DNA from: Pseudisothecium myosuroides
Lineage: Eukaryota > Streptophyta > Bryopsida > Hypnales > Lembophyllaceae
NCBI GenBank assembly: GCA_951799445.1
Contig: OX637297.1
Span: 3,968,001-4,032,000 of the forward strand
Length of the DNA: 64,000 bases
Direction of reading: 5' to 3'
The notes under the pieces were generated by a model, which was given only the letters and a program-made list of their open reading frames with translations, did no database searches and had not been told where the DNA came from. Shown here piece by piece: positions 10,560 to 57,760 of the stretch (its first letter is position 1; the number at the start of each line of letters is the position of its first letter). Made by a program: the position numbers and the translations under genes.

Positions 10560-11510
10560 CAACAGGTTTACCTCGCATCGAGTTAAACTATACTAGTCAG
10601 ACCCTATACACAGCAGATTTACCTCGCATCGAGTTAAACTATCCCAGTCAGACCCAACACAAAGAAGATTTAACTTGCATCAAGCTAAACTATCCCAGTC
10701 TGACCCAATACACGGCAGGTTTACCTCGAACCAAGTTAAATTATCCCAGTCAGACACAATACAAACAAGATTTAACTCGCATCGAGATAAACTTGCCAAG
10801 ACAGTCCTAACCCACAAAAATCAAACACGTAGAAAAGAAAATTGCCAGCACTCCAGATTTAACTTGCATCGAGTTAAAATAGCCCAGATACTGCCAGAAT
10901 AGAACAAATTAAACTCAAACCGAGTAGAATAAACCAGCCGTCCTAAATCCTTCTAGTTCAAAGCAATATTGCAGCGAAACATCTACTACGCGCAGCAAAG
11001 AGACACAAAAGCCTTGTTAACACTAAGACCCTGTTAGACCACCCGTAAACTTGACGTAGACCAGAACATAGCAGACAACAGAGAAGTAACCTCGATGCGA
11101 GTTAAACTTGGCATCCCGCACCAATAGCCGAGATCCAAATTAGGAAAACCACAAAACAAAAGAGAAGCTTAATTTGATGCGAGTTGAACGCAACCACTGA
11201 ATGCAGAGCTGAATACTGGTGCACAGTTTAAATATCCTTCAACCAAGACTTTGAACAAACAGAAAAACAGTGCAAGGGTTGGTCGTATCAGGAAGAGATA
11301 GTCAGAAGTACCCCTTTGTTTAACTCGGACCGAGTTAAATGAAAGCACGCCGTGTAGAGAAGAATAAGTTGTTTGAGCCTAGAGACCAGTTCAACAAAAC
11401 CAATGAAGTTGATACACCTGAATTGAAGAAGACTACTAAATCAAAAGTCCCCCTGGAGAAAAATACGACGGCTTTGAGTAGAGAGAACTTTCTTGAGTCG
11501 ATTTAAAACT
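10560..11510 (+). repeat. E1-type palindrome cluster
   Basis: From 10560 to about 10900 a unit of about 50-60 bp repeats. Each unit carries an interrupted palindrome with arms TTTAACTCG (or TTTACCTCG) and CGAGTTAAA, then ATCCCAGTCAGACCCAA-like sequence. Further isolated palindromes follow near 10908, 11092, 11170 and 11319, with a half-site near 11495. The cluster ends just before the first E1 exon. The same palindrome recurs inside E1 introns at 13127, 18765, 18809 and 19883. Confidence 0.8.
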
Positions 11511-11676
11511 CAGAAAAGCAAGCACAGTCGACGGTAGTGGATTAAAATCTAATTCTGAGAGTTTCTGGTTGAGGTCCACGTTGCTTTATAACCGTAACTC
11601 AAAGCAAGTTGAATACCACAGGGATTCATGAGAGATGTCCAAGTAAACCTAATCAGTTATCTTGTGATGTACGCAG

Positions 11677-13119
11677 ATGGAATCCCAGAAGGAAAAACTC
11701 CAAACGCACTTCAAGATATTCGAGATACCAAAAGCGGACGCTGAAAAATATGGTGACCTCGACGTTCTTGGACAGTGCTGGGAGTGGAAGGAGCCTGACT
11801 AGGTGGAGTTTTGGACGACCATGCTTGTTCCTATGTCGACAGAGTTTAGTTTCATGACTAAATACAAAAGGTCCGAGGCAAACCTGCCGGTGTCACTGCA
11901 CGAGTCCATCAGAGAGGTTACGACGGGCCCAAATGGGATTGTTTTCGTGTGCTGCAAAACAATTGACCCGGATCAGAAAGAAGAATACCTCTTCTTGTAC
12001 GTTGTACACACCCGGAAGACTATATACTCCGTGTCCATATACTTCAGCAGCCTCACGAATTTGAGCTTCTAGGATCTGCAGAAGGACTTGGAGAAGAATA
12101 TAGCTGAGAAGAAATGGGTAGCAAAAGACGGCGGGCTGCTTATTTGGAAATCCTTGGCCTCGAAACTCAACGCCCTCATCAAGTCATTCGACTACATGAA
12201 AGTCAGCATGGACGAAAAACTGAAGAGAATGGCTCCAATATCCCTCACACGGGATTATAGCAGTCAAAGGGGAAGCCAAACTTCCCTCGTCTTGACTACT
12301 CCAGAGATAGGTCGAAGCCACACAAGGAAGAAATCCACTGACCACTTCTCTCGTGGTAACCCCGCCGAGGCCGCTCCACCAGTTGTTAAGGGTCGGAAGA
12401 AAAAAGCAGCCGTTGAGAGCGAGAAGTCAAATTTAGGGGAAACCAGCATGGCCTCTGAACTTCTGAACATTCCAGAGGACATTGGAGGCCACGTGAAAGA
12501 AATCAAGTATGAGGAGTCCTGCAAGTCCTACGATGACTATTGGAAGGAGTGCACAGATTCATATGTCGAGGGGATTGGGCTCCATTTACGAATCCCCTTG
12601 GAGCAGTTGGAGACGCCACCTAAAACATTGAACATCTGCGAGCTGGAGGAGGGTGGCATCAAGAAGTCACTTAATTATCTTCTAAACATGATAGACCCAG
12701 ACAAGAAGATGACCCTGTGCGTTATGCCATAGGACCAGACCAAGAAGCCGGAAAAGTTTGATGATGCGAAGGACTGCAAGTTCTGGATGGTCAATGGCCA
12801 GCATTGTGTGGAGGCAGCCAAGCAGATGCAGAAAATGGACCAAATTAAGGACACCAAGAAAGAGAAGTTTAAGGTTTGGGAGTGCTTTGTGGTTTGGAAT
12901 AAAGACCACAGGATCATCCGAAAAATTTCAGCATATTATAACCGGGTGAACCATTTCCAGAACTTCATGCCAATGTGGGCAACAAATATTATTGGGGCAC
13001 GCTACGTGTGGACACAAATGGGAAGCCCAACACCACCAAGGGAGGCAACTGAGCTAGGAAAACCTGTCAGGCCAACAAAACAAACATCCAAGGACGTGAA
13101 CAATGCCATTCTCTTTGCG
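11677..13119 (+). pseudogene. E1 exon 1: N-terminal region with DGQHR/ParB-like motif (decayed)
   Basis: The exon starts with ATG (MESQKEKLQTHFKIFEIP) directly after a CAG, and ends before a GTAAAA donor. At 481 codons it matches the 480-codon exon 1 of E2 along its whole length. Three in-frame TAG stops (11800, 12070, 12730) interrupt it, but no frameshift does. The best-conserved block is FWMVNGQHCVEAAKQM, resembling the DGQHR/ParB-like core. ECFVVWNKDHRIIRKISAYY then follows within about 25 residues. In prokaryotes such domains bind or cleave DNA and are often fused to DNA methyltransferases. Assignment is by motif only. Confidence 0.6.
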
Positions 13120-13915
13120 GTAAAATTTTAACTCGGCTCGAGTTGAATAGTTGATGTAGATTTTTATATTCTCGAGTAGATGCATGGATGAGTGTCTCAA
13201 TAAACTGGTCACAAAGATGTTTTCAGAAATTGTTAGTATTGGAAAGACTCTATGCCACAAATGGTCACATTTTTTCACAATTTTTTTGCCCAAAATACTT
13301 AACAACTTGATTATAGAGATATTTATGTAGTTGGTTTAAGGAATTTCAATTTTTAATAGGTGTATGGGACTTTTGAAGTGTAGTATATGGACTTGTCACA
13401 ACTGAACAAAAATTACATGTGGACTTTTTTGAGGATGTAGATATATTTGAATGTTTTCTAACTTTGTTATAAGTGCTCCAAAGGTTTTGCTTGAGTGAAA
13501 TGCTTTCTATATTACAAGAATTTCTCTTAATATAGAATTAGGGACTTTTTAGTAGAAAAAATGAAGGTTAAATTTTGAGGATTTTTTTTGATAAATAATA
13601 ATTATTATTGTTATTATTATTTTTTCTATTGTATTCAATTTTAGAAGATTAACGTGGGCCACCCTTTACTTTTCACTTTTTTCTATTTTATTTCCAATGT
13701 AGTAGCCATTAAAGGAAATAGCCTTCAATTTTAGTGACTTTTTGTGAGGTTCCGGGTGCCGCTTTTGAGACACTCATCCATGCATCTACCCTCTCGGGGT
13801 ACTCGTGATATTGTATACTTGTAGTTTATATTTCCTGTTCCTGCAGGCTTTATATCGATGCAAGCTAAAACACCTTTTAATCCAATACTAACTTGATCAT
13901 ATTGCATGTGATCAG
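13120..13915 (+). other. E1 intron 1
   Basis: AT-rich sequence between the donor at 13120 (GTAAAA) and the acceptor ending at 13915 (GATCAG). Joining at these sites keeps the frame and the alignment to E2 exons 1 and 2. Confidence 0.6.
13127..13148 (+). promoter_or_regulatory. E1 palindrome in intron 1
   Basis: TTTAACTCG, two bases, TCGAGTTGAA: a copy of the E1 palindrome just after the exon-1 donor. E2 intron 1 carries the E2-type palindrome at 44948. Confidence 0.65.
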
Positions 13916-14371
13916 GATTTCAATGAAGCTGTCAAGCTTTGGTTCTCCATGATTGACACGAAGAAGAACCAGAAGGATATGAACCAGAAAAAAGAGATGG
14001 ACGTCTACAACAAAATTAAGCTTATTACGGCTGCCCCAGATGTCTACGACCTGTGGGGTCAGGTCATCTCTAGTCATGCCCAAGGGGAGCTCATTAGTCC
14101 CGACTTCCTAACAAATTTCAAGCACACTAAGGCTTGGGATGCGGAGAAGGACGGAGTTATTACCTGAGAGTTTTTTAATTGGATGGAAAACTGCTCTGAG
14201 GCCGACCTCAAGCGATTGGCTTTGCATTTGCTAAATAGGACCAAGGATAGGACGCTGCCTTATCTGAAGGTCACCATGAAGTTAATGAAGAAGGTTATCC
14301 CTGAGACTTGTAATGCCAAGGAGTGGCTCGAGTGGTGTAAGCAGAAGACGGCTGTGAAGAGGCAGCTCCAT
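13916..14371 (+). pseudogene. E1 exon 2, left part (broken by insertion)
   Basis: The frame begins DFNEAVKLWFSMIDTKKNQK and aligns with E2 exon 2. The conserved MID lies exactly 33 bases into both exons. One TGA (14165) replaces a lysine of E2. The exon is split after AVKRQLH by the element at 14372-17846. The right part resumes at 17852 with HLKSDL, so removing the insertion and one TCCAT restores the alignment. Confidence 0.7.
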
Positions 14372-14602
14372 TGTCGCAATGTGAATTTTTGGTTTTTTGT
14401 AAGTTATCTAAATCTTGGAACGAAAACCGTGATCTGGGATCCGAAATTGAGCAAGAGATAACGGGAAACTGGAAATTAACTACGGAACGGAAGAGGTGAC
14501 AATCCGGATTTGATCTGAATCTAAACCGGATTAGAGTTGGAGCGGATCTGAGTTGGAACGGATTGGGTCAGGAACGGATTTGGTCATGATGACAGATCAG
14601 AC

Positions 14603-14610
14603 TATAAATA
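14603..14610 (+). promoter_or_regulatory. TATA box of copy B
   Basis: TATAAATA about 275 bases before the ATG at 14882, conserved in copy A. Confidence 0.6.
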
Positions 14611-14881
14611 GGCTGACCAATCCAGTTGCCACTCTTTTTCAAATTTCTTTTGCGAAAATCGCTCTCTAGCGCATACTTAGCTTCCCTCTCCAGCCATTTG
14701 CTCCCTTGTTCTGTGAGTTTGTGTGCGTGGGTGTGTGTAAGGGCGCGCAGCGCTTTAGTGTGTATTGCAGGTTAAGAGGTATTCCGGTTGAGATCGGAAG
14801 AGCGAAGGTGAGAAACGAGACGTGCGGCTAGGAGAGGGAAAGGTAGCCTCAGTCAGAATCCGGTTAGCACAGTTCGTGTCC

Positions 14882-15787
14882 ATGCCTCAGCTGTGCAAGA
14901 GTAGAGCAGGACCGTCCAGTTCCTCCGCAGTAGAAGTTAAACTCCGGAAGGTGTGTCCCATTATTCCAGCAGAAGAGAAGGAAAAGGACAACCTCATAGA
15001 GGACCTTGCCAAGATGGGTTGCGGAGGACTGATCGATAAACCCTGGGGGTTTAGGGAGGAACGGATGATTCGAGAGCTGTTGGGAAAACTCTCGAATCAG
15101 TTTGACAAGACCATCCGCGGGATTCCGGGCAGTTGGACGGAAGAAATGTGGAGGTCCGTGTACGATTTCCGGTTAGGAGGTCGAGGGATGGCCACCTCGA
15201 AGGAAGGTTACACCCGAGGGAAGTTCCGGACCACGGTGGACTCGAAGGATGGGCATGCGGTCGCGGATTGTTTGGACGACCGGCATCAAAACCTTCTACA
15301 GTTCCTGGTTCCGATCATCCACCCGGAGAAGCCGACGAGGGTGACAATCGCCATCGGGAACCTGATTTTCGGAGCCCTGAGCGGGGAACGGAAAGTGGAC
15401 TGGGCCCGGATCTTTTCCGATCTGGTCAGCCGTCTAGTTCCAAAGATCGGAGGAAGTAGGCCGACTCCGTTGAGTCCCTACATCTTCCATCTTTACAAGC
15501 ACAATCAACTCCTCACGGATACGGAGGAGAAGGAGTGGAAGACTCATGAGTCACTCCTGAAGTATGGGGAATCGGAATCGAAAGAAGAACAGGAGGAAGT
15601 ATCCGGTTCCGAGGAAGAAGAAGAAGAAGAGGAGCAACACCGGCCGCAGCACAAGCGGCAGAAAATGACGCCTCCTCACCGGAGAGGAACCCCAACCCCT
15701 CCGGGTGAGACCTCCAACCTTGGGAAGAAACCGGTTTTTGAAGAACCGGGTCCTTCCGGAGCGGATCCGACGGATCCGTTCAACTAG
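14882..15787 (+). CDS. Gag-like protein, first half (copy B)
   Basis: I chose ATG 14882 (MPQLCKSRAGPSSSS) because the same start is kept in copy A; the frame extends upstream to a GTG at 14822. The protein is about 301 residues. Central segments include GGRGMATSKEGYTRGKFR and VTIAIGNLIFGALSGERK followed by VDW. The C-terminal part is acidic (runs of Glu near 15616-15640) and then proline-rich. It ends at TAG 15785-15787. The next frame continues in phase and starts without an ATG for 24 bases. No enzyme motif is visible; a capsid-like role is inference. Confidence 0.65.
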   Translation: MPQLCKSRAGPSSSSAVEVKLRKVCPIIPAEEKEKDNLIEDLAKMGCGGLIDKPWGFREERMIRELLGKLSNQFDKTIRGIPGSWTEEMWRSVYDFRLGGRGMATSKEGYTRGKFRTTVDSKDGHAVADCLDDRHQNLLQFLVPIIHPEKPTRVTIAIGNLIFGALSGERKVDWARIFSDLVSRLVPKIGGSRPTPLSPYIFHLYKHNQLLTDTEEKEWKTHESLLKYGESESKEEQEEVSGSEEEEEEEEQHRPQHKRQKMTPPHRRGTPTPPGETSNLGKKPVFEEPGPSGADPTDPFN

Positions 15788-16645
15788 CTGATCAACATCC
15801 TGAGCGATGTGCGAGCAGACTGGACAGTGAAGAAGCTGATTCTGAACCAGATCAGCAAGCTGGTGGGAGCACCAGCAGATAGCAACCTTGCAGGAGTGGT
15901 TGCAGAATTCATCTCCAACCCGGATGAGATCCGAAAACAAGAAGCGGAGATACGACGACTCCAAGAGGAGAACGAGTCGTTGAAGACGGAATTGTTGCTC
16001 CTCAAGGAGGACATGGCTACCACACGGGAGATGGCGGAGGCTACCCGGAAAGTAGCCGAGGATGTGAAGGCCACTTTTGGGACAACCGGAGAGGCCGTCA
16101 CGAAGTCAAAGCTATTTGACGAGGGAGTCCTCAAGGAGAAGAAAATATCCGGAACTAGGTTGGTCCGGATTTTGACGGACTACTCCGAGAAGGTGGAATT
16201 GGTGATGATGGAAGCGCGAGAAGCTGCAAACCGGATGGAGGAGAGCAGCCGGAAGCTGAACGGAGTGACGTTGTCATGGTCGTTCCATCTGTCCGACCTT
16301 TCAATGCCCGGGTCTTTTCCGAACGTGGGCATTCAGACGGAAGGAAAGGAGGGAACTCCCCAGTCAAAGAAGAGTGGGAGGAAGCTCGCGCACACCATCA
16401 ACTTGGATTTGTCACCGGATCTCCCAGAACGTGAAACTGGGGAGCGGAACCGGAACCTGACGGACGTCTTCGAACAGCTTGGAGCGGAACCACCTAGAAG
16501 TCCCACACTGAACTCGGGGCAGGATCAAAGTATGGATCTAACCCCAGATCAGGGTGCGGATCAAGATCAGAGCGTGGACCAAGGCGAAGACCAAGTTATG
16601 GACGAAGGAACGGATCAAGAAGTAGATCCGGTTATGATAGGATAG
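15788..16645 (+). CDS. Coiled-coil second half of gag-like protein (copy B)
   Basis: This is the same frame as the preceding ORF, beginning LINILSDVRADWTVKKLI after the TAG. A strong coiled coil follows (IRRLQEENESLKTELLLLKE). The tail is Asp/Gln-rich with a repeated DQ-containing pattern and ends at TAG 16643-16645. An independent start could be the ATG at 16012, but the frame is conserved right up to the TAG, which suggests one protein of about 587 residues made by readthrough, or a recent nonsense mutation. Unlike element C, no RING finger is present. Confidence 0.55.
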   Translation: MINILSDVRADWTVKKLILNQISKLVGAPADSNLAGVVAEFISNPDEIRKQEAEIRRLQEENESLKTELLLLKEDMATTREMAEATRKVAEDVKATFGTTGEAVTKSKLFDEGVLKEKKISGTRLVRILTDYSEKVELVMMEAREAANRMEESSRKLNGVTLSWSFHLSDLSMPGSFPNVGIQTEGKEGTPQSKKSGRKLAHTINLDLSPDLPERETGERNRNLTDVFEQLGAEPPRSPTLNSGQDQSMDLTPDQGADQDQSVDQGEDQVMDEGTDQEVDPVMIG

Positions 16646-17846
16646 ATAGGATTTAGTTTTGTAAATATTTGTTAGTTAGGACCGGACCAGATTTGATCCG
16701 GTGTGTCTGGTCTGGATCGGATGTTTTCCGGTCTGGCCAGCTCGGCAGGGACCGAAAGTTCCGCGCGGACTTTCCGGGCCCCTTTTTGTTGACTTTTGAG
16801 TTTTAAAGTGTATAATAGTCAGTCTCTGCGAAGGAGACTGGGAGTCTTTTCCCTTGACTTTTTGTGTGTTTTCTATTGATTTCTTGTTGTACGTCTCTCC
16901 CGCGCGTGGCAGGGTTGTTTTGGTGAGAAGTTAGGAAAATGTATGCAGATTCTAGAGAGATTTCTCCCCTTAGTGCGTTTGTTTTGCTCTTATGTGCATG
17001 TGAGTGGGTATTCTAAGTGTTGGGAACGGATTTCAGTTCCTCAGCACCTCTACAGTTCTCGGTTCCGGGCGAGAAAACCGTTGTTAGGCTAGGCGGATAG
17101 GGAAGGAGTCCTTAGTCACGCTAGAATTCCTGGATAGGAAATCCGGTTGAGTGTCCGATCTCCCGTGAGGTCTCGCTGCCCTAGTTGGTAAACGGAAGGA
17201 CTTTAGTTGATGTTGGAACGGACGAGTTTGCTTGTAACCACCTGACTTTGCACGGAGGGAACTTGGCATCAAGGTCGTTGTAGTATGAGAAGATCGTACG
17301 GGGGGTCTTTGTGTGACCTGCAAACCGGATCGCTATCCCGGTGGCTGTGAGAGATCAAACCGGATCCGCGCTAGTGTAGGAAGTAATGGATTAGAGAAGT
17401 GGGTCTTCAGCCACTATAAGTCACGGAAGGAGTGGCGGGCCTGCCACTCTCAAAAGCAAGCGGCAAACCCTCTGATGGTGAAACAGAGGCAAAACTAAAC
17501 CGGAGTAGAGTGAGAGTACGTGTGAAAGGACCGGATCGGATCGGTCCAGAGAAGTTCCAGGATCAGAAATTGTAGGATCCTGGGTTGTGATAGGATTACA
17601 GGACCGAATAGCTTGATAGACCGGCAGAAATAGAGAGAGGTCTGGTCGTTGTTTTCGGTGTGTTGTTGTTTCTGGTTTTAGATCTAGGACCGGAAAGTAG
17701 AAATTGGATACTGGCTGAGCTTAAGTTGGGAATAGAGCTATACACTTCACAAAATCTCGTGGGTTCGATCTTTAGAGTCATTTTGTTATGCTTTAGAGTG
17801 GTTTTGGGGAGTATAACAGGGAGTTCACTTACTCTGTGCTGCGACA
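16646..17846 (+). other. Non-coding 3' part of copy B
   Basis: Composition is moderately GC-rich, with many CCGGAT/ATCCGG words. TATAATAG occurs near 16811. No coding frame of note and no internal copy of the left terminus were found. Confidence 0.5.
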
Positions 17847-18764: not shown

Positions 18765-18786
18765 TTTAACTCAATCCGAGATGAAC
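18765..18786 (+). promoter_or_regulatory. E1 palindrome in intron 2, 25 nt after donor
   Basis: TTTAACTCAATCCGAGATGAA is a degenerate E1 palindrome. It starts 25 bases after the exon-2 donor GT at 18740. The E2-type palindrome starts 25 bases after the equivalent E2 donor. Confidence 0.6.
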
Positions 18787-18808
18787 TTGAGCTGAGTGTA
18801 TTGTTAGG

Positions 18809-18830
18809 TTTTAACTCGCTTTGAGTTGAT
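18809..18830 (+). promoter_or_regulatory. Second E1 palindrome in intron 2
   Basis: TTTAACTCGCTTTGAGTTGA, within 50 bases of the previous one and just before the exon-3 acceptor region. Confidence 0.6.
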
Positions 18831-19882: not shown

Positions 19883-19905
19883 TTTCAACTCGATTTGAGT
19901 TGAAA
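19883..19905 (+). promoter_or_regulatory. E1 palindrome in intron 3
   Basis: TTTCAACTCGATTTGAGTTG followed by AAA, 28 bases after the exon-3 donor. An E2 counterpart in intron 3 is not evident. Confidence 0.6.
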
Positions 19906-20482: not shown

Positions 20483-21412
20483 GGTAGCAGTGAGGCCATC
20501 GTTCCAAGTGGTGAGGTGGAGGACCAAGTCCTCCCTTCATTCACGTCTGGGCAGGCAACAAAATGGCTCAATGTCGTCCTGGATCTGAATGGAATACTCT
20601 GCGTATGTGAAGATAAGAAGTATAATATCAGGGAGAGCAAATACACCAAACCCGAGGAAATTTATCCGGGTTTAGACACGTTCATTGTTGGGGTCAAGAA
20701 AGTCATAATTTGACCTCAGCGTCTAGCTGTTCTACGAGAGTTATCCAAGATTGTTAACCTCTCGGTCTGGAGCTCCATGAAGAGGTCTATAGTTAGGGAT
20801 GTATGTGGGTACTTGTTTAAAGGTTTAGACCCCCCCTTGCATGTCTTTGGACAAGAGCAATGCGACATCCTGAAGTGCAAGCTGAAAAATGGAAGGCCGG
20901 GCACCTACAAGGTGAAGGGAACAAGCAAGGACTTGTTCCTAAAACTGCTGGAGAGATTGTTCCAGATGAGTGATTCCGTATTCACGAGTAAAAATACACT
21001 TATAGTGGATGACAATCCTACAAAGCACGTGACAAATCACCCAAAGAATGTGATTCTCTTCGAGTCGTGGTCATACGGGGGGTACGGAGTGCTGGATGGG
21101 ATTCTCATTGACCACCTACTTCCTTATATTCAACGCTTGCATGCAGCTAGGCCTAGTGAATTGTACCCCTTCCAGAGAGACAATGTTTTTGGGCGTTTGC
21201 ACCTTTTTCACAAAGAGGATCAAACCGAGTTCAAAGAACTCAAGGAGGCAGTGGAGTATTCCAATAGTTTTTTCCTTCAGTGTAGTGTAGGGAATCCTAA
21301 TTACTCGTCTGCTTTTGAAGAATCCGAAGACCCCAGCATAGAGAGGTCAAAGTCGATGAATTTTGTCTCTTATACTATCACGTATCAGAGTCACGGTGAC
21401 TTGAACTCTTAG
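20483..21412 (+). pseudogene. E1 exon 5: DLNG-type HAD/FCP1-like phosphatase domain
   Basis: The exon opens GSSEAIVPSG and contains the plant HAD/NLI-interacting-factor signature: WLNVVLDLNGILCV (catalytic segment, DLN in place of DxD), LSVWSSM (motif II region) and LIVDDNPTKH (acidic metal-binding motif). Host relatives read K/V-R-P shortly before the VWSS region; here the Arg position is TGA (20711-20713), exactly codon 77 of the exon, as in E2. The rest of the frame is open to TAG 21410. Such enzymes dephosphorylate proteins such as the RNA polymerase II tail; substrate and activity here are unknown. Confidence 0.7.
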
Positions 21413-44968: not shown

Positions 44969-45013
44969 TTTTCTATTCAGTGACTAACCTGTTTACATTA
45001 TCTTTGAGTGTAG

Positions 45014-46378: not shown

Positions 46379-46403
46379 GTGAGTATGTTGTTCTTTCTAA
46401 GTA

Positions 46404-46424
46404 TTCACCTCCATTCAAGGTGAA
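46404..46424 (+). promoter_or_regulatory. E2 palindrome in intron 2, 25 nt after donor
   Basis: TTCACCTCCATTCAAGGTGA plus A, starting 25 bases after the donor GT at 46379. The equivalent E1 intron has the E1-type palindrome at the identical offset. Confidence 0.75.
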
Positions 46425-46497
46425 TTGACATGTTTGTTTGTCTTGGAATTTATTATCTAAAATATGTTATTCTAACTATTTTTCCATCTTCTTCCAG

Positions 46498-47278
46498 ATG
46501 AATTTGTTGATAAATTATATCATTGGGGATTCTGACGAGACGAAATCCTTTAGTGACCTCTCGCAATTGTCTGTGGACTTGGACAAGGCGGATTTCCTTC
46601 AGTCAGGGTACTATGTTGATGAAGAGAAGTATCCAAAGACGGTCGATAATGACACCTCGTCATCCGGTAGGGGCAAGAGAGATCGTATTCAGTTGGTTGC
46701 TCAAGATTCGGAGCACGACATGATTGACCAAGGAGAAGGTGACAAAGTCCTCATGATCAATCCTCCCGCGTCCCAAGAGTTTAGCACTCCACATGCTGGA
46801 ACAGTCGCCCCTATGGATCCACCAGCAAGTGAACGTCGTGGTTCATCGTTCACTTCTCCATCCCCTTCTTCAGAGCGTGATCGAGGAAAGAGGAAGTTGG
46901 ATGAAACAGAAGATCTTACTATGAAGGATTACATGAAAATGATGCATGAGAGGATGCAGAAGTATGAGGAGGACCAATTTGAGGAGAGGAAACGTTCAAG
47001 GATTGAATATGCTTAGTTGATGACTATCATCAAGGGAACTCTACCTTCTGGAAACTCTTCCCTTCCAGCTATTGAGATGAATGAGCCGGCCCCTCACGTT
47101 TTGTCGGAGAACCGTGTATCGGTATCTTCAGGTAGTGGAGCTCATGTTCTTCCTAGGACATCCATGGAATTGGATCTAGTGTTCCATAGTCCTTTCGAGG
47201 CGCAGCAGCAGTCAGATGACCTGCAGACTCCTGCAATGAGTTCGGGGGTTGGAAATGAGGAAGTCAATGATCCCCAAG
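46498..47278 (+). CDS. E2 exon 3: charged linker with one in-frame TAG
   Basis: The frame starts MNLLINYIIGDSDETKSFSD after TTCCAG. It is rich in Ser, Pro, Asp and Glu, with a basic and acidic helix-like stretch (ERMQKYEEDQFEERKRSRIE) just before a TAG at 47014-47016. The frame continues past it (LMTIIKGTLPSGNSSLP) to the donor CAAG|GTTCAT. The matching part of E1 reads WLDTKEMMNDFLKILP, with Glu where the TAG stands. So the TAG looks like a nonsense change in this copy. The function is a spacer between the methyltransferase-like and phosphatase-like parts. Confidence 0.55.
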
Positions 47279-47842
47279 GTTCATCTCAGTGAACTCTCAC
47301 TGTAATGATTTGGGATCTTTTGAAGTTGCGTTATATTTTTTTTTTTTTTGTATGGTTTCTTTTCCTTTTACAGGATTGTTTTGTATTGTTGAATGTAATT
47401 TTGAAGATTGCATTTACAAGTATGAAGTTGTAAATATTGCAATCGTTTTTTCAAGATTTTTAGTTATTTTCAAAATGTATGTGTATAGAATTGCAAAAGT
47501 ATTCCATCTTTTTTTCGCTTGCTTTTATATGTATAATCCAGTTTCACCTTTAAAGAATTGTAAATATTACATTTTTTTTTTCAAGATTTTAATTGTGAAT
47601 TCATACTTAACTATTTAAGTGCATGAAAATATAAATATTGAATTTTTTTCATTTACATTATAAATGTAAATCCATAGTTACATGTACATAAATTATAAGT
47701 GCAACTTTTGTTTGGTGATTTTTGATGTGAGTCCACACTTATGTGCATTAGATTGTGAACATAATATATTTTCATAAGATTTGAAGTGTAAATCTACATT
47801 TGTTTTGGAAACTACTCATTATCCACTTGTATTAATTTGCAG
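47279..47842 (+). other. E2 intron 3
   Basis: AT-rich, between CAAG|GTTCAT and TTTGCAG. Splicing here keeps phase 1 on both sides, as in E1. Confidence 0.55.
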
Positions 47843-48132
47843 GTTCTCTTAATGAGGACATAGTGCCCCAACCTCTTCCACCTTCTACCATTGATCCCTC
47901 GAATGTGTCCTTCCCAAAGAGCCCTTCATGTGTTCCAAGATCAAACCATTCAAATTCTGGTGGAAGAGTCGACCTTAATTTGGAAGTGTCACTTCAAGGA
48001 GTCCAATTGCAAGAGGATATGGAGGTTGATGTGAATATTCCAGATGATGTTCTCATGGAGGTTCATATACCGCCTCCAACAAATAATGCATGCACTAAAG
48101 AATCCTTACAAAGTCCTAAGTCTGAGGAAATT
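47843..48132 (+). CDS. E2 exon 4
   Basis: Open in the phase set by exon 3 (GSLNEDIVPQPLPPS...) to ATT|GTAAGT. The last third (DDVLMEVHIP...SPKSEEI) matches E1 exon 4. Acidic and proline-rich; no domain recognised. Confidence 0.55.
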
Positions 48133-48293
48133 GTAAGTGGTCAACTTTTCTTTATTCTAATGTGCATCTATTGAGATATTTGTTCTTGTGACTTGGATCT
48201 TCTACTGTTTGAGTCCCTTCATTTGTGTTTCTATTTTGTGTTCAAATGTTTACTAACAATTGTTGGCGTATTTCTTTGCCTTGATTTTAACAG

Positions 48294-49109
48294 AGGAGCG
48301 AAATTTCAAAAATACGTATAGGTGCAACACAAGAGCCTATCCTAAAACCGCTGGCTTCCAGGCCGAGAAGAAGGTGGCTCAATGTCATTCTAGACCTGAA
48401 TGGGATCCTTTGTGTATCTAAGGAAAAGAAAAATCTTCCTAAGGGCACAGTCTACAATGATCTCTCGGAGCCACATTCCAGCGTTTTTCCAGTATCTATT
48501 GGTTCAAAAGCTGTATATGTTTGACCTCATTGCGAGGAATTCCTCCGACAATTAGCCACAGTCGCATATATTTCTGTTTGGAGTTCCATGATGACTTCTA
48601 CAACAAAATTCATATGCGAGTACCTATTCAGAGGATTAGAGACACCATGGAGTATCCATGGGCAAGAGTTTTGCGACAATCTGAAGTGTAGGGGTCCGCG
48701 AGGAAACATCACAACTTTGAAAGTGAAGGGAACCGACAAAGACGTCTTCCTCAAACCTCTGGACAAACTGTTCGATGCACAGAACTCAAAGTTTACTATT
48801 GGCAATACTATTATGGTAGACGACAGTCCTGAGAAGCATGTTCTGAACGAGCCTGAAAACGTTGTGCTTTCGGATTCGTGGTCAAAGGAAGGAGATGGTT
48901 TTAAAGACACTTTCTTGATGGATGAGCTTTTGCCTTGGATTACACGCTTGCATGGCACCAAGGATCGTGGACTATTGTCCTTTCGGAAGAATGACAACAT
49001 TGGACGGCGGATGCTTGTTGAGGAGCAGGATACGCAAGAATACGATGAACTTATAGACGCCATAGAGGAGTCTAAGATGCTAGTTAAGGATCATTCCAGT
49101 CTTCGCTAA
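48294..49109 (+). CDS. E2 exon 5: DLNG-type HAD/FCP1-like phosphatase domain, TGA at codon 77
   Basis: After AACAG the frame reads RSEISKIRIGATQEP, then RRWLNVILDLNGILCV (nucleophile segment), YISVWSSMM (motif II) and NTIMVDDSPEKHVLNEPEN (acidic metal site). This is the plant DLNG branch of HAD/NLI-interacting-factor phosphatases. TGA at 48522-48524 takes the place of the Arg of the usual RP(F/H)C.EFL motif (here TGA-PHCEEFL), the same codon 77 as in E1. Otherwise the exon is open to TAA 49107-49109. How exon 5 joins exon 6 is unclear; a GTTAAG donor near 49082 would be in phase. Target and activity are unknown. Confidence 0.75.
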
Positions 49110-49311
49110 TACTGAACAATATTCCTTGCGTTTGTGCATTTTATCTATTGCTATGGTGTTTCATTAAAGACGAGTGTATCCATTATAGTTCTATCATAGT
49201 CGTCTTGCAAAATGGATGATTGTTTAATTCATTTCGAGTTGTTTTATTGTTTGTATTCCAATTGTCCACCCTTTATTCTTTGTAATCACACTGACTTTTG
49301 TGACTCTTCAG

Positions 49312-49659
49312 GATTTGCGTGATTGTTCCGTACCATATACTGGTAGTGTTTCCAAGTGTAATGCGTCGGTGGATTCCATTTTAGAATACGGCCAATATGC
49401 ATTATCTCAAAGCGGTGTGGGTCACATTATGGTCTCGGCAGCTACTGCACTATCTACTATGGACTTCTCCACAAGACCCATCAATGATGGTGTGGTGGAT
49501 AGTCCACCAAGCGGGAGAAAGCGATTGCTTCCAGTGAGCTCCCCGTCGCCACTCAAATCTCGAAAAATAGCTCCTTCAGCTTGTCTACGTTCAGCTGATG
49601 TTATTGTTCCACAAAGAAAGTTGTATGTTGACAACAGACACATTTCTACAACTTCTAAG
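49312..49659 (+). CDS. E2 exon 6: conserved MDFS/VVDSPP segment
   Basis: An open 116-codon exon between CTTCAG and AAG|GTATGA. STMDFSTRPINDGVVDSPP and then RKRLLPVSSPSPLKSRK are shared with E1. The segment is basic and proline/serine-rich. It may be the C-terminal tail of the same protein or belong to a separate transcript, since exon 5 has a TAA before it. Confidence 0.5.
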
Positions 49660-49781
49660 GTATGAATGAATTTGGTTTTTTATCCATTTGCTACAATTGT
49701 GTTCTATGCACGAGTTGGATTACTTTAACACATATTATTGCAATTATAACTTTTTAATTTATTGTCTTCTTTGTTTTATAG

Positions 49782-50120
49782 GTATCGAGTGGATCCCAAA
49801 GAAAAGATTGTATAGGCACAAAGTCCATTCCAATACCTCCACGACCTATCAATTCAGCAAATGCTGAATATCCGAGGAAATTAGGATTACAAGTTCAACC
49901 TGGTCTACTTCCTAAAAAATTGGTACAACGTCATCGTCCATCGAAGTCACATGATGAACGACTCATGCATTGTACCCATCGACCTTGGGATGCATGGGAG
50001 AAGAGGTCCTTCAAGATGCAAGAACTACAACATCCCCACCAAATACGCCCTCAAGAATGTAGTCGAGGACCTGAGATATGGAAAGCAATGGTAGATCCAA
50101 GGAGTAGATCTCATGCATGA
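49782..50120 (+). CDS. E2 exon 7: C-terminal PWDAW segment
   Basis: Open from the acceptor TTATAG to TGA 50118. HRPWDAWEKRSFKMQEL and SRGPEIWKAM are the parts shared with E1. It is strongly basic at its start (RHRPSKSHDERLMHCTHR), compatible with nucleic-acid binding. I know no family with this motif. Confidence 0.55.
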   Translation, partial: VSSGSQRKDCIGTKSIPIPPRPINSANAEYPRKLGLQVQPGLLPKKLVQRHRPSKSHDERLMHCTHRPWDAWEKRSFKMQELQHPHQIRPQECSRGPEIWKAMVDPRSRSHA

Positions 50121-52350
50121 AATTATGTGTATCTATAGGGATTTCATGGATCAAGTAAGATGATTTATCTGTTATATATTATACGGTATATGTTATACCT
50201 TTATATATATATGTTATATACCTGCTATACCTGTTATGTATTATATGGTATATGTTATACCTATATATATTACAATAAATTCTATACAATCATTTGACAT
50301 TTGGATGCAAGATTGAATCACATTATTAGATTTACAATGAAATAGGCATTCTAGAAGTCCAAAGCTAATCTAATGCTTGTCATATTTGGCAATCTTACTA
50401 TAAATATATGGACCATCAATCTCCAATTGTTTTTTTTAGTTTATGTTGCTCTTACTTTAAGTATTAATGTTACGATTTGATTATTGACTGTGAATGAATG
50501 ACTTCTGCATTGCAAATGACTGATATTTTTCACCATGATTGTATGCAATTGTAGCATATAATTAGATTGAAAAGGGCTATCAAAACTCTCATAATCTGAG
50601 AATTCTCTCAAATTAATGAATATGGTGTTAAAGATAGATATTTGGACGTCCTTTTCACCTCCATCATCTCCTTCAACCTACATCGCATCTAATTCGCCTT
50701 CAAAACCTTTTTTGTCACTTTCACGGGTAGAAATGGTGGTACCTGAGGAAGAGGGCAAGTTCAGCACTTTTGGGGAGAGGCTAACTTTGCTTGATTCCAT
50801 CCATAAACTAAGATTTGGCTCTTCATCCTTCTCTCCCTTGGTGAGACCATCCTCAATACACTCATACACAATTTTACTTTTCTTTCTTAGTATCACCTTG
50901 AGAAGATCAACTTGAATTCCATCACAGAGTCTCTTCTTCCTTTATTTCAGATCAGTGGCTTCCTCTGCAAGCTTTGAAAATTCTACCCCCCTTCCAATCA
51001 ATAGCCTTCATTGAGAAAGAAGCTTCGCTAGTTGCTCCCTCTGTAAAATTTGTTGGAGAGCTTGCAAGATGGGCAAACTTCTCGTTGGAGACTGCATGTA
51101 GAGCAACACATTGACTTTAGTTTAGTTGAATTGTACGCCCTCAAACTTTAAAAGATAACTACAATAATGTCCATAACCAATAATTTAAAGTATAAAACAA
51201 CAACATAAATTGAACACCTCGTACTTAGTACAAAGTATAAATTCCATTGTGCACCATGTGTTGAGTACAAATTATTTTTTATATTTGTACTCAAGGGACT
51301 ACTAAATGAGTACTACACTAAGATTGTTTTATACAAATTATATCACTTAAAGTCAGTAAGGACATTTAATACAATTCAATGTTTAAAAAATAGTATAACA
51401 AGTAAGTTTCATTGTGAACCACTTTTCAAAAATGTACATGTGGTACATTCAATAAATTCAAATTTAATGTATATTCTAAGTACGGTTGAGGTAATCTAGT
51501 TTTGTACACTCCAATGTAGTGTACAAAGAAACAACTGACATAGTCTATGAAGAGTACCTGCATAGCTAAGGAGTACAAGAAAGTCATACCCAAATTAGAA
51601 ACACTTTGGTACTCTAAATACTTTGAATTGACAATTTTACTCTTAAACAAAGAAGTAGAGGTACTATGACTACCAGTGCTACACTTGGGACATTTTGGCA
51701 AACAAGCAAATACTATAAATTATTGTGAAGTCTTTCTTATCCTACGACATGTACATTATGTACCAATAATGTAGACTATGGTTGGCAATACTATATTGTA
51801 CTAGTGAGTGAGAGAATGCCATTGCAAAAGGTACTGAAATAGCGTGTAAGAGATTGTAAAGTTACGAATATGGATTTTAGGACTTGGAAGTCTCTGAAGT
51901 AGGAAATTACAATTATACACTCTATGAAACTCAAAATTTGGAATCCAAAAGCATGGACTTACCAACAACTAAACACTGACTTCACTACTAGAAAATCGTG
52001 ACCAAAAGGATAGAAAATCAACCACTATTTGCTAATTTGGGCACACAGGCTTAGTTTCTGTCAGATTTTGTATATTTTTGTTGAGGCTTCTGATGCCTAC
52101 TCTTTTGTTGTTAATCCGGGTATTGCACACTTGGAAATAGCATTCAACAAAGTGTTGCCCCAGATCTTGCTCGTTTCTTATGCCAAGTCATCAACATGTA
52201 GCATTAATTGCTATAGCTCTTTTGACTTTTTTGACTTTTTTTGACTTTTTTTTTGACTTTCTGGCTTTTTTGACTTTTGATGGAGCATACAACTGAAGAA
52301 AGAGAATTTCTCTACAGTTCTTGCGCTTATGAAGTCATTCATATGCCATA
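50121..52350. other. No gene seen
   Basis: AT-rich 3' flank of E2. A palindromic TATA/GGTATATGTTATACC stretch lies at 50170-50270, and a (TTTTTTGACTT)n run at 52215-52285. Confidence 0.5.
52215..52285. repeat. Simple repeat TGACTTTTTT
   Basis: Six irregular units of TTTTTTGACTT. Confidence 0.75.
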
Positions 52351-52379: not shown

Positions 52380-53030
52380 AAAAGTAAAGAGGTGGTGAAA
52401 TCCCCCGATGTTTTCCTATGGGTTTGGAGATCTTCCGAAATAGGAACGCTTTGCATGCATCCAATTCAACACCCATAAGTATATTGGGGAGTGCTTCATG
52501 TGCTTGGAAATGAAAGAAATTGTGTAGTTGTAACATAGTTCACCGTGCTAGAGTTCACATGATTGTATTGGGAGATTTGTGGACCGGGTTTACATAGTTT
52601 AGGCATCCAATTTACAACACAACTGAAGTCTGAGAACCTATCGAGAGATCCTCCACTGACAACCACTTGTTGCAAACATGGCTCCCTTCCATATTAATCC
52701 CTCAGTGAGCGCTGATCTTTACATAATTCTATCGGGAGATCCCTTGACGGGGGTGTAGAATATGAGTCAGCTTCACTAACAATCTTGGTGTCGAAGTGGT
52801 ACAATTTGATTCCTGTGCTATAGTGCAAGTCATATCCGAGTTCATCAAGAATGATTCACAGTAAGGCATAATTTAGGCAATTCTTTCAAAGATATGATAT
52901 CCCGAGAGTTCAACGGAAGTATATACAAGTGAATTTGAAAGTCAAACATCAGTTCACAATTATCAAATGAGCAATTGCTTTGGGAATAAGGAGACTAGTT
53001 CTAGAAATCAGCGGGAGATCCTCCAATGGA
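52380..53030. repeat. E3-type palindrome words downstream of the DUF7869-like pseudogene
   Basis: Scattered, not tandem, copies around GAGATC: TCGAGAGATCCTCCACTGA (about 52640), ATCGGGAGATCCCTTGAC (about 52732), GATATCCCGAGAG (about 52897) and GCGGGAGATCCTCC (about 53012). They are imperfect versions of ATCGTGGGATCCCACGAT at 57629. Confidence 0.5.
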
Positions 53031-53799
53031 GTGCTAACATAGTAGAGCTAAGGTAGTTAGGATATAACGAAGTGACAAGGGCATATCTCAATATTCACAG
53101 TGACATTTGAAGAACTGTAGACCACTAAGTCACAGGTGCTCAGACGTTCAACATACATCTGAAGATGAATAACGGCTAAGTAAACATAATATTCCATCCA
53201 AAATAATGACATTAGTTTTAGTTTGTGTGAAGAACATCAAGGTTCTTTCATTGCAAAAAAAAGATCTGTACTTGGTTGTCCGCTATATAATTGTGAAGAT
53301 GCAAAACCCAGAAGACTAGAATTCCAACAGTGACTAACTGTGAGAGAAAAGAAATGCATTATTCAAACTCATCTGATTGCATGTATGACCCAAGCAATGT
53401 ATTCTTTTTTGGAAACAAACATAAACCACTTCCATTTCAAGAGATGAGAGGAAAGACATCCCGCGCTTTTGCTATCAAGTCATTGCCCCTGTGCCGCATG
53501 CAAAGAATAGAAATCATAAACATATTAATATATTCATAAATTTTTTTTTACATAAACATGTCACAAACAGCAGCTCTGAGAAATTAATCGAAGAACAATC
53601 ATACTAAATCAGCGGAATGTAATTCGAAAACCTGACTTGCAACTGTGCTTACTGGATGTAGGATGCGTCGTGCAATCTCACAATGTCCACGACAATCCAC
53701 AGAATGCATCGTTACATCTCATGATTGCCCCAATGACTGACACAATGTGTTGGAAATTCCCAAGATGGCAATAGTGACCCCGAACTAGGCACTCAATCA

Positions 53800-56700
53800 T
53801 GGGTCCACCACGTTTGCCCAATACAAAATTTGCTAAGGCAATCTCCCTATTCTTCTAAGGAATTGTCCGTGATTTTTGATCCACTCTCTTGGACCAATTC
53901 GCATACATTGCAACACCTACATCCACCCAAGCGGGGGGACTATTTTCAACAATCCATTTACCGTACTAGCAATTCTGGTACCTCAATTCTAGCATCGTTT
54001 TGGAGTTATCGGGTCGCCAGTACTGAAGCAAGAACTTCCTGTTATTCACATCTCCTTCTAATCTGCATACAGTAGACAATGCTCTTTCCTGCCAAACAGC
54101 ACATGATTCCGAGGCTTCCAGTCTGAGAAGTACTCAACAGCCTAGTTGTATGTCTAGCCACGGATTAAAGCTTTCCCTTGGCGCTTCATTTACAGGGCCG
54201 CAATAAGGTTCGGGCTCCTCTTCTTCCTCTGAAATCACATCCATGGGATTGACCGTTGATCCTGGGCGAGGGACTCCATAACGCGCCACCCTCCAATTGT
54301 GCTGTGGCAAGAAGCCTTCTACCAACTCGGAGGACACTCGGATAGTGGTTCCTTCAGCTCATCGAGAACACACTTCCAATAATCCACATATGGACCAAAC
54401 GCAGTTGCAAATCCCTCGCATTTAGACATTCCGTATTGCCAGTACTGAATGTATTTCTTGAGTCCTACTAGCATGAAACCCTTGTTCAAGGTAGCTCTCT
54501 GCGCCATTTCCCTTGCCTTCTTTTGATTTCCATTCGGTATAGGAACCTTGCTGCCTTACATGGGCTTAAATGGAACAGGCTTTGGACAGCCACAAGGGAG
54601 CATGGGCCGACCATTGTTGTCTCTTTTCCAAAGGCGTTCAAAAGGTTTATCAGATGGCAACCAGTTTGAATAAATTGCTGACCTTTTGAAGTTCATGACG
54701 GGAACCCCATCAGTGTCCACGTAGAACTTGAACAAGTGCATCTCCCCCAATCCAATTAATCTTTCCCCGCGATCGCACTGGTAACCCTCCACAAACAACT
54801 TGAAATCCCCCACCTCCTGTATGAACTCCGGCATAAATGACAATTCTTGGGACTGCATGAAGGCTTTTATGAGGTTAGCGACAACAAAAGTGTTCTTGGT
54901 CTTTAGAGCCTTGGAAAGGTGGCTGAAATATGCATTGATGTACTTGTGAGTGTGTCCAACTAGTAGAAACCCAACCTAAATTTCCTTGAAGACACCTCGT
55001 GCAGTGAGCAAGGATAAGAATGCCATCAGATATTTGTTCTTGTTATCCTTGGCAGAGTTGTCAAGCTGAAGATATAAATTTTCAAGAAGGGGGGTACTTC
55101 CGACCCAAGCTCCAGGTTCAATGAGGATTAGGCTATCCATGCATCTAGACTTTCCTCTAAATAGTGCCTCAAACAATGAGTTAACTGACGGACATGGAAA
55201 GCAGTCGCCTACCTCTCAAATAGATGGACCCTCTAGTTGGTGCAACAACCTTGCCGAAGACGAAATGGTGAAGTTGGAGTCCACAGGCCAGCAAGATGGA
55301 GCATAATGGGCGTAAGCACTGTCACCATGGCCATGAGCTACCATTCTAGTAACGCTCATCGGAAGCTGCCCCAAACCGGTCATGGCCTTCGTTGTCACCC
55401 GTAGTCTAGGTAGAGCCGTCTTGGATGTATCCATCTTGTCGTGAATTATACATAAAATTCTTTGAGGATCTCGTTTGATTCGTCACGCCAAGACGCATAC
55501 AAACAACGGCAAGAAGCTTGGTGATTGAGATGATGAGTCCGCTGCTTCACAAACTCCACGTACTCAAGGCTTCCTTTCGGAGACTTCAGAATAAAGTGTT
55601 GTAGATCGTCGCACGTAGTACATTTGGTGAACGAACTTCCAACAAGCTTAATGGAGACGTTGTTGAAGTGCTCCCACTTGAGTCTACTAATAGTCGACTG
55701 GCTCACGAGCGACAGACCATAGTCGGCATTCCACTGCACATCCAAAATTGGTACGCTTAAGCATCGATACGAGCGAAGGGGAAGGAATGCAAATGACAAG
55801 CAATGCTCCAGAAGAATGATCGTGACATCTCACGATCATTGATCTCGTCGAGAGACCTCACGATCAATAATAGCTATGACTAGAAATTAGGGGCACTACC
55901 TCGTTGGCGTCTGCTCGGACTCGTTTCCAATTTCTTCCTGAAGGAAGAAATTTTAGAGTGTCCGTTCGCCCGTTCACGATGCCGCATTTGGTGGGGCATT
56001 TGATCAACATTCTCATCAATAATGGCTTTCATAGTCCCAATGATCTGAACAGTCCGAGTCCGCGGGTGCTTAATCCCTTTGTTTTCGTGCATCCCTGAGA
56101 TCATGCCGTCATTATACATCGTAATTGTGGTAAGTGGACTTCGGGATGCCGTGAATTATGTACCACGCCTTGCCACAAACATCAACTCCCTGTAGCGTGA
56201 TGTATTTCCGCTTCCGCTCCCCATACCTTTCGTGAAGTTGTCCTCCCACTCCAATCCCATATTCATGGCGCTCGTCAAACAACTTCAAGTAGTATTTCTG
56301 CCTTACCAACAGCGTGAACTCATGGTTAAAATGCTAACAACACAAACGTCTGCTGCACTTCTCCGAGCTGATTTTCCGAATCTCCTCGTCTGCCGTTTTG
56401 CGGGAGTTCTGCGATTCCTTCAGTTGCAGACTGGGTTTGCGAACTACAAAGTGGTATGGTACTTTCATTCTACCTTCAAGGTAAGCAAGAGGGTCGTCAA
56501 TATCGGGAATGGTGGCAAAATGATCCATTGTCTCCTTCAATGAACGACCATTGGGAAACCAACACTCCAAAATTGGCCACCTGTCGTGAGACATTATGGT
56601 TTTTCTGTCATCCACAAAAACATCAAGGACTGTCACACCTACAAAACCTTCACCAAGTACTTCGTCTTGGAAATGATCTTCCGGTCTCCAACAAATGATA

Positions 56701-57172
56701 CGACCCGAGGAAACAAGGAGTCTGCCTACGTCCTTCCGATGCACATCAAGTCCAAACCAAGCTCCTTGATGAATATACGGACATGGATCCATCGGGGGAT
56801 CCCCGACGCTCTAACAATGTCAGCAGCTCTCCACAACACTACATTCTCTTGAACATCCTCTAATGTCCTCATACCCCTCTGACAGGGAAAGCATTTTAAA
56901 TCCTGGAATTCTAATTTGATAGAATGAGGTCGCACCAAAATGTAAATCAAAGGTTCAACAGGTATGGGCACACCCAGCCACTGACCCTGGGGACAAACCT
57001 CTTTAACAATCCCTGCTCCAACTTCACCGAATCCAGGTACAATCAGCTAAACCCAATCACCATTCACAAATGGTTCACATCGAGCAGTGGACTCCTCTGA
57101 TTCACTTTGTACATGCGTTCCGTCCACATACGGAACTATCGCGTCAGCAACAAACTCACAAAATGAATCCAT
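53800..57172 (-). pseudogene. DUF7869-like protein copy E3, decayed
   Basis: Starting at ATG 57172 (MDSFCEFVADAIVPYVDG), fragments in all three minus frames align with the E2 protein from end to end. They are broken by TAG, TAA and frameshifts (for example TAG near 57048, TAG 54976, TAA near 54556, a shift near 54325). Recognisable parts are GVDVCGKAWYIIHGIPKSTY, CTTCDDLQHF, IHDKMDTSKT, LQLDNSAKDNKNKY and VGHTHKYINAYFSHLS. The last motif has lost the acidic residues of GHTHDDID, so the putative catalytic triad is broken. The C-terminal region (RALSTV.., LLQYWRPDNSK) reaches down to about 53.8 kb. Confidence 0.75.
55815..55872. repeat. E3-type palindrome words inside the pseudogene
   Basis: GATCGTGACATCTCACGATC, then GATCTCGTCGAGAGACCTCA and CGATCAATAATAG: two or three copies of the E3 palindrome between coding fragments, probably in an intron. 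Confidence 0.6.
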
Positions 57173-57399
57173 TCTAAGAGTGAATTTTGTCGAATCCCTT
57201 GGATGAGATTAAACCGACTTGGCAACCCTGTACATCATAAATTTAAGGAGTTAGGCGTGTCTACAGAAGAGTGCTTCATTCATGGCCTTGCAATGTCACA
57301 ACATGAAGGACAAAAGCATCAACGTGTATACAGCTGTGGGTTCAATTGATCTGCTACAGCAACACAAATTAAATAGTGGATCAAATTGAATCAATATGA

Positions 57400-57760
57400 C
57401 GAGTCCCCGACATATTATTAATCAATCAAGGGATCCCACGAGAACGGCATCGTGTAATTTTTGATACAGTGGTCTTAAAATCCCCCGAGTAGGAGAAACT
57501 GGCATCACCCCAAAAAATGATTGTGAGATCCCACGATGCACGGACAGGATTAATGAGAGAGTATGACGGTCATTGAAAAGTAAGGCACATAGAAGTACAC
57601 AAGAAAGGCCACAGCTAGGGTTCAATTGATCGTGGGATCCCACGATAAAATGATAGGGGATCCCTCGACTCTCAAACCGCGAGATCTCTATACTTAAAGA
57701 TTGCAAGGTCTCGCGATGCTTTATAAACAAAGATCGTGAGATCTCACAATGATTACATAC
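57400..57760. repeat. E3-type palindrome cluster upstream of the pseudogene
   Basis: At least six copies: GGGATCCCACGAG (about 57430), TTGTGAGATCCCACGATG (about 57522), the perfect ATCGTGGGATCCCACGAT (57629-57646), GGGGATCCCTCGA (57657), CGCGAGATCTC (57678) and ATCGTGAGATCTCACAAT (57731). The cluster sits just 5' of the DUF7869-like start at 57172, as the E2 palindromes do for their gene. Confidence 0.75.

Follow-up and report, generated by a model that had tools for sequence, protein, structure and literature searches.

How can selfish DNA shift the specificity of a regulator together with the dozens of scattered sites that this regulator reads? The question is open, and the VANC proteins of VANDAL elements provide the one case known to us in which such a change of regulator and scattered sites has been encountered. 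A stretch of 64,000 nucleotides from the moss Pseudisothecium myosuroides (assembly GCA_951799445.1, contig OX637297.1, positions 3,968,001 to 4,032,000; this whole stretch is hereafter the window, and coordinates refer to it) raises the question again in a different setting. It carries three elements, termed E1, E2 and E3, whose genes are accompanied by multiple copies of short palindromic sites (dyads). For E1, E2 and their relatives, we consider it rather probable that a dimeric reader encoded by the element, most likely a protein with a ParB fold, binds these dyads and that the sites and their reader change together.

The initial annotation had placed a different palindrome at each of the three elements, and all three are indeed present there in numbers above chance expectation. 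The E1 arm, TTTAACTCG, has 9 exact copies in the window against 0.51 expected, all within 10579-18818, and the E2 arm, TTCACCTC, has 55 against 2.5 expected, 52 of which fall inside E2. The three stray E2 arms, at 20316, 23522 and 50654, are lone arms that form no dyads. The E3 dyad is found in 5 copies at up to 3 mismatches, against 0.02 expected; when G or A is permitted at one arm position, 11 copies at up to 4 mismatches are detected in the 52-59 kb region, with none at up to 4 mismatches in the other 57 kb of the window. A finder that uses no seed sequence recovered 10 copies of it in 52.3-58.2 kb, against at most 4 in each of ten shuffles. The sites of E1 and E2 share a frame of 21 bp, in which 8-bp arms flank 5 bp, and differ chiefly at arm positions 3 and 5, so the two annotated differences between their arms stand, in arms of eight rather than nine positions. 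The E3 dyad has an even centre and is a separate palindrome, not a third spelling of the E1/E2 site. With a matrix built only from the promoter arrays of the window, six of six gene-body sites were assigned to their own element, one of them barely (0.38 bit).

E2 is a complete DNA transposon of 25,012 bp (25618..50629). In two further genomic copies (L012 and L014) homology to the window ends exactly at 25618, and the element is bounded by terminal inverted repeats (TIRs), with a 26-bp left repeat (25618..25643, plus strand) showing an 88% inverted match (e-value 2e-4) to the right repeat (50604..50629, minus strand). A target-site duplication, AAAG, lies at 25614..25617 and 50630..50633, and when the flanks are joined to restore the empty site, reading frames of 281 and 122 amino acids run across the junction; an open reading frame (ORF) of unassigned identity (24697-25617 and 50634-51100) was seemingly interrupted by E2. 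Within the element, a gene coding for a DUF7869 protein, a putative transposase, occupies the minus strand (26509..29349; Pfam PF25273, e-value 7.6e-35), with an in-frame TGA at 27760-27762 in the window copy where its relatives read through. The ParB-like gene occupies the plus strand. Its exon 1 (43391..44839), which has 12 homologues in protein databases and at least 88 matches in its own genome, encodes a domain of the ParB/sulfiredoxin (ParB/Srx) fold (44297..44677), and it is followed by exons 2 (45015..46381, homologous to pieces of E1 13892-18766) and 3 (46501..47016, homologous to E1 18830-19012) with predicted splice sites. A gene for an NIF-phosphatase-like protein (48321..49109, plus strand; Pfam PF03031, e-value 9.7e-9 for 48525-49109) lies behind it. 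One array of E2 dyads is situated 5' of the DUF7869 gene (29595..31045; 25 sites at up to 4 mismatches with a period of about 60 bp) and another 5' of the ParB-like gene (42168..43217; 17 sites at up to 5 mismatches, the last one weak, with a period of about 67 bp), with further single dyads in intron 1 (44948..44968) and intron 2 (46404..46424) of the latter gene. The AT-rich middle of E2 also contains an interstitial telomere-like repeat (33149-33196, GGGTTTA, 6.9 copies).

The plus-strand genes of E1 are homologous to those of E2, with 34-57% amino acid identity over stretches. Exon 1 of its ParB-like gene (11677..13104, plus strand; contig positions 3979677-3981104) has three internal TAG stops, and its NIF-phosphatase-like gene lies at 20564..21412 (plus strand; Pfam PF03031, e-value 1.6e-6 for 20714-21412). 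Ten dyads are found 5' of the ParB-like gene (10567..11339, with a 51-bp period in five), one in its intron 1 (13127..13147), two in its intron 2 (18765..18830, starting at 18765 and 18810) and one between the ParB-like and NIF-like genes (19884..19904); all four of these gene-body sites lie outside exons. Judging by sequence, E1 and E2 are members of one family of large DNA transposons with two divergent units. The annotated kinship of all three elements holds for this pair, and E3 shares only the DUF7869 gene with them, in a broken form (54325..55730, minus strand; Pfam e-value 1.2e-12 for 54556-54975; 30-47% amino acid identity to that of E2 in tblastn). Two E3 dyads lie in a probable intron of this gene, deduced from the sequence (55819..55864), five at up to 4 mismatches lie 5' of it (57425..57750) and four weaker ones, at 3 or 4 mismatches, lie 3' of it (52392..53725). 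The dyads are thus located, as had been annotated, both upstream of and inside the genes of their own elements.

We surveyed the genome assembly (388 Mb in 222 contigs, with contigs C1-C11 of 55.0-16.9 Mb), in which all match counts are lower bounds. The E2 dyad has at least 1178 matches at up to 2 mismatches, and the reversed dyad used as a control has none genome-wide. Placement relative to genes was evaluated for 100 exact E2 sites among these matches, which group into 23 clusters. A ParB match of the E2 family is found within 25 kb of 22 clusters, a DUF7869 match of the E2 family within 25 kb of 19 and a divergent ParB match within 25 kb of a single one. Of 20 cluster loci that were fetched, 17 have an E2-type DUF7869 gene and the array within one 10-kb stretch. 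The E2 dyad is therefore neither evenly spread over the genome nor equally dense across clades, in line with what the initial annotation had anticipated for a genome-wide search. The ParB-like protein itself has at least 88 matches, comprising 43 of the E2 family (at least 87%) and 45 divergent ones (37-43%) that include E1, and DUF7869 has at least 83. A divergently oriented DUF7869 match occurs within 25 kb of 57 of the 88 listed ParB matches, against a mean of 0.57 and a maximum of 4 in 200 random trials, and only three show another arrangement. Given that the partners correspond in all 57 pairs (both of the E2 family in 35, both divergent in 22), the two-gene unit appears to be the rule; some of the 31 ParB matches without a listed DUF7869 partner are fragments. 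Contig C11 (16.9 of the 388 Mb) holds 21 of the 88 ParB-like and 23 of the 83 DUF7869 listed matches, several times its share, and is possibly a sex chromosome or another poorly recombining contig. Of the DUF7869 relatives, those with a species name belong to two mosses, Physcomitrium patens and Ceratodon purpureus, and the letters VG appear in the locus tags of two named relatives from Ceratodon.

A phylogenetic tree of the ParB-like proteins with 31 rows (L040 was left out by the fill rule, P0131 and P0132 were not entered, and the root is unsure) divides the representatives from this genome into four groups, with relatives from other assemblies falling between them. Clade I is E2, on a long branch, clade II comprises E1 and ten fetched loci (100/100), clade III comprises L044 and L047 (100/100; clades II and III together 96/96), and clade IV comprises seven loci (90/92, and 100/100 with P0008). 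From the 44 divergent loci other than E1 we took 20, picked for diversity, each comprising exon 1 with 1.6 kb of upstream sequence and 250 bp of the following intron. The seedless finder detected the 21-bp dyad in all 20, with 7-18 copies per locus against 1-3 in shuffles (three per locus); an A-rich candidate equalled the dyad in L032, both with 7 copies. In counts seeded with TT[CT]A[AC]CT[CT] at up to 2 or 3 mismatches, a seed that covers positions 3 and 5, there are 240 upstream dyads against 6.0 in shuffles, and exons are strongly avoided, with 280 dyads across 37,906 bp of noncoding sequence and 5 across 27,000 bp of exons. For column and pairing counts, near-identical copies were thinned, which left 6 loci in clade II, 2 in clade III and 5 in clade IV. 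In clades II and IV the arms have 0.7-1.9 bits per column and the flanks 0.0-0.4 bit per column, and as the flanks are unrelated these are separate sites and not tandem copies of one repeat. Clade III sites have a conserved extension, with TGCAA before and TTGCA behind the dyad.

The prevailing half-sites are TTCACCTC in clade I, TTTA(A/T)CTC in clade II and TTCAACTC in clades III and IV, and the spelling mostly agrees within clades between the ParB promoter, intron 1 and the DUF7869 promoter. The proposed match between dialects and element clades is thus supported, with each dialect keeping to its own clade. At the DUF7869 side of 20 E2 copies, C is found at position 5 in 789 of 822 half-sites (seeded), and in the E2 copy of the window the same base is found in the array on the ParB side and in the two intron sites. 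At position 3, T is present in both halves of 57 of 87 clade II sites and C in both halves of 50 of 71 clade IV sites. The DUF7869 promoters of six elements (three of clade II, one of clade III and two of clade IV) all hold the dyad (5-15 copies by the seedless finder, with no more than 3 in shuffles, and 6-14 sites in the seeded count). A predominates at position 5 throughout the six, and position 3 is C in 16 of 20 and 14 of 18 halves in those of clade IV, and T in 20 of 28, 9 of 16 and 7 of 12 halves in those of clade II. Both genes of one element therefore share its dialect, if only roughly. At position 5 of clade II sites (for example in L031, L033 and L035) a left A with a right T is seen in 35 of 87 sites and the reverse in 5 of 87, a tally in which orthologous sites are recounted; these sites seem to be directional relative to the gene.

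Relatives in other assemblies bear on the direction of change. The end of the exon was recognized in 10 of 12 ParB-like homologues, and in all four whose tails run at least 13 codons into intron 1 the tail encodes a dyad with A at position 5, TTYAAYTY-N5-RARTTRAA, 12-15 nt past the splice donor (background 0 in 196,806 positions, or 1 for a wider union motif). The six other tails, of at most 10 residues, have no dyad, and a test of these intron tails for palindromes alone was weak (best shuffle P 0.05). The single match to the E3 dyad in 132 homologue proteins, with 1 mismatch, was judged to be due to chance. Given the dyads with A at position 5 in other assemblies, this state looks ancestral, with the root of the tree unsure and the tails of the tree neighbors of E2 (P0001 and P0003) too short to be informative.

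The ParB fold is known as a bacterial partition and repressor module. A structure model of the domain, derived from a domain-only alignment of 13 sequences, has the ParB/Srx fold, with nucleotide-bound ParB, Noc and KorB as its best structure matches; a model of the full exon 1 (9 sequences) had a mean pLDDT of 51 and no usable match. A sequence search of the PDB with the ParB-like profile gave one match, which was unrelated (e-value 0.32), and no relatives were found at the sensitivity used in phages (tblastn), in one genome per bacterial and archaeal species or in viral contigs. No ParA-like match was detected among 20 ORFs of the window scanned with Pfam at e-values up to 1. A literature search that excluded most subscription journals and preprints yielded no description of a ParB-like protein in a plant transposon among the titles and abstract openings listed, and no paper on DUF7869.

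These features are consistent with a model in which unit one of the element would supply the DUF7869 protein, and unit two the ParB-fold and NIF-like proteins. Both promoters and the early introns of the ParB-like gene, bearing many copies of one 21-bp dyad, would present predicted binding sites for a reader that is symmetric (dimeric) and element-encoded, with the ParB-fold protein as the likeliest candidate. Bound to the arrays, this reader might switch on, limit or shield from silencing both of its own units. Joint inheritance of reader and sites would allow the sites within a clade to follow the specificity of their reader, and such shifts would have taken the sites along from C to T at position 3 in clade II and, in clade I, from A to C at position 5. 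Far more tentatively, the protein might act as a ParB-type nucleotide-gated clamp in the plant nucleus, which would load at the parS-like arrays, spread over the 25-kb element and keep its promoters open or mark the element for the transposase, with each clade rendered independent by its own spelling.

Several observations weigh against the joint evolution of a ParB-fold reader and its sites. In terms of the tree, parsimony requires one change for each of the diagnostic positions 3 and 5; the correspondence between clade and dialect amounts to only two changes, and the case hence depends on the concordance among separate sites within elements. This concordance is uneven at position 3: the clade II DUF7869 promoters are mixed (T20/C6, T9/C6 and T7/C5, plus others), as are the halves of the clade III ParB promoters (C27/T10/A1) and DUF7869 promoter (T14/C13/A1), and agreement between promoters is weak in two of the three clade II DUF7869 promoters and absent in clade III. 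One half of the intron site in L044 is TTCACCTC, as in E2, and the spelling of E1 is impure, with TTTACCTC as the left arm at three sites. The two E2 arrays may be distant or old copies of each other. Across all 300 pairs of E2 array spacers the mean same-strand likeness is 6.7 against 6.3 in shuffles, and 20 of the 300 reach at least the 99% point of the shuffles, with no excess on the opposite strand; blastn also links two E2 dyads and the spacer between them across the arrays (73%, e-value 4.5e-5). It is therefore the dispersed sites in clades II and IV, together with the intron sites, that carry the weight of the argument. With respect to the protein, GERR and ENxxR are the nucleotide motifs of ParB CTPases, and the place of box II is occupied by NGQH rather than GERR in all 13 aligned rows, with YNRVNH further on in most. 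No helix-turn-helix was found in the modeled exon 1, in which the region behind the fold is largely below a pLDDT of 50, and a Pfam scan of 9 ParB-like homologues gave no match naming ParB.

Of the other explanations for the dyads, the one that fares best, though we regard it as unlikely, is that they are sites for the transposase, comparable to the subterminal motifs of TNPA and MURA, which would serve in excision assembly and in repression of its own promoter. The DUF7869 protein is probably a DDD transposase; in the set of 132 proteins (12 of them ParB-like), the aspartate-rich motifs HDK[MI]DH, [QI][LMI]DN and GHTH.[DY]I occur in 94, 70 and 56, respectively. Its gene pairs with both E2-family and divergent ParB matches and has dyad arrays in its own promoter, and E3 combines a DUF7869 gene and a dyad, with no ParB-like gene but that of E2 within 100 kb among the matches listed. 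However, the E2 arrays are not adjacent to the ends: the left end is 4.0-5.4 kb from one array and the right end 7.4-8.5 kb from the other. One array, along with the intron sites, belongs to the ParB-like gene and not to DUF7869. It is still less probable that the dyads are bound by a transcription factor of the host, which would drive the genes of the element, with the dialects arising as founder effects of array growth at positions that this factor does not read. The location of sites upstream and in early introns is enhancer-like, and in the tandem E2 arrays (about 60 and 67 bp), which are possibly distant copies of each other, a single founder base could spread. Against this, the dispersed sites of clades II and IV, whose flanks are unrelated, show a strong bias at position 3, where a mixture of bases should be seen if it were not read, and E3 has an unrelated dyad.

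We find it quite improbable that the dyads function as RNA hairpins in introns or 5' leaders, with a role in splicing, nuclear retention or control by small RNAs. All dyads are palindromes, many of them within introns or what are probably introns of the 5' leader, and the arms of clade IV sites pair better than those of shuffled partners (P 0.002). But pairing within a site does not exceed that between arms taken from separate sites in clades I, II and III (P 1.0, 0.79 and 0.37, respectively), and in clade II A opposes A at position 5 in 35 of 87 sites. Half-sites on DNA thus fit the pairing data better than hairpins; some upstream sites may nevertheless lie in an intron of the 5' untranslated region, which keeps a slight chance of a role in RNA and counts against the preferred reading. 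Satellite DNA as the whole explanation was set aside on account of the dispersed sites of clades II and IV with their unrelated flanks.

Other features of the window concern E1, the NIF-like genes and the right flank. The left end of E1 lies outside the window, and its right end is probably at 23084, a tentative placement by likeness to the E2 end (23059..23084, minus strand, with 8 mismatches in 26 positions to the left TIR of E2; the last 18 bp differ from those of E2 at two places). Exon 2 of its ParB-like gene is interrupted by an unrelated nested element of 3.48 kb (14371..17846, plus strand), whole or partial copies of which are found near E2 copies in L011, L020 and L023 (the last only in part), and an inverted partial copy (94.5%) at the left edge of the window (1-945). 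The NIF-like genes have an in-frame TGA at a homologous place in E2 (48522-48524) and E1 (20711-20713), a place occupied in relatives by the arginine of 'RP'; it may represent an old common stop, a recurrent C-to-T change or a decoded stop. Motifs of the HAD type usually read DxDx, and the corresponding motif is DLNGIL in both E2 (48375-48430) and E1 (20564-20619). With asparagine in place of the expected second aspartate, the phosphatase activity of these proteins is doubtful. Tandem satellites of two kinds, with repeat units of about 182 and 178 bp, occupy 60800-64000.

One genome thus offers four protein clades and three site spellings, with many copies that have open reading frames, and with copies of the E2 family only a few percent apart. 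As a consequence, a change in specificity is directly testable here, with each protein set against each site. If the proposed role is correct, the ParB fold enters the regulation of a eukaryotic transposon.

Among known systems, membership of CACTA elements, which have CACTA ends and a 3-bp target duplication, was rejected, since the ends of E2 begin with AACAC and its duplication is 4 bp long. The Sola superfamily is typified by a 4-bp target duplication and a DDD-type transposase. E2 resembles it, by description only, in its 4-bp duplication AAAG (seen in one copy) and in the aspartate-rich DUF7869 motifs; ParB-like and NIF-like genes are, to our knowledge, not features of Sola elements. With respect to the ParB-parS, Noc-NBS and KorB systems, the moss elements differ in being eukaryotic transposons with tens of sites per element, and their protein has NGQH for GERR and no helix-turn-helix that we could find. 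The likeness is in the combination of a ParB/Srx fold with palindromic sites near the gene, such as the 22-bp palindromic parS DNA that figures in PMC8367383.

The closest parallel in layout is with the VANDAL elements of Arabidopsis. According to PMC5735166, these have tandem repeats of a short motif in noncoding DNA, located 5' of VANA21 and within introns of VANB21 and VANC21. The motif shows enrichment in the family that it belongs to and is seldom seen in elements outside it, and the motifs of VANC6 and VANC21 differ at two or more nucleotides. The moss elements share with this account the motif arrays, which are concentrated in the family and placed 5' of the transposase gene as well as within introns, and the divergence of motif and protein together. 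In contrast to the nine-base motif in one orientation given there, the moss site is a dyad of 21 bp, the fold of the candidate reader is that of ParB and the units are arranged head to head, 10-25 kb apart. The 20 window ORFs contain neither a Mutator-like transposase nor a VANC-type domain (Pfam, e-values up to 1), and DUF7869 is the sole transposase candidate among them in E2 and E3. Hence, of the VANC-type evolution of reader and sites that the initial annotation had suggested, the layout is retained and the VANC and Mutator-like domains are not. Since the proteins differ from those of VANDAL, the moss elements look like a second, independent case of the same strategy rather than a VANDAL.

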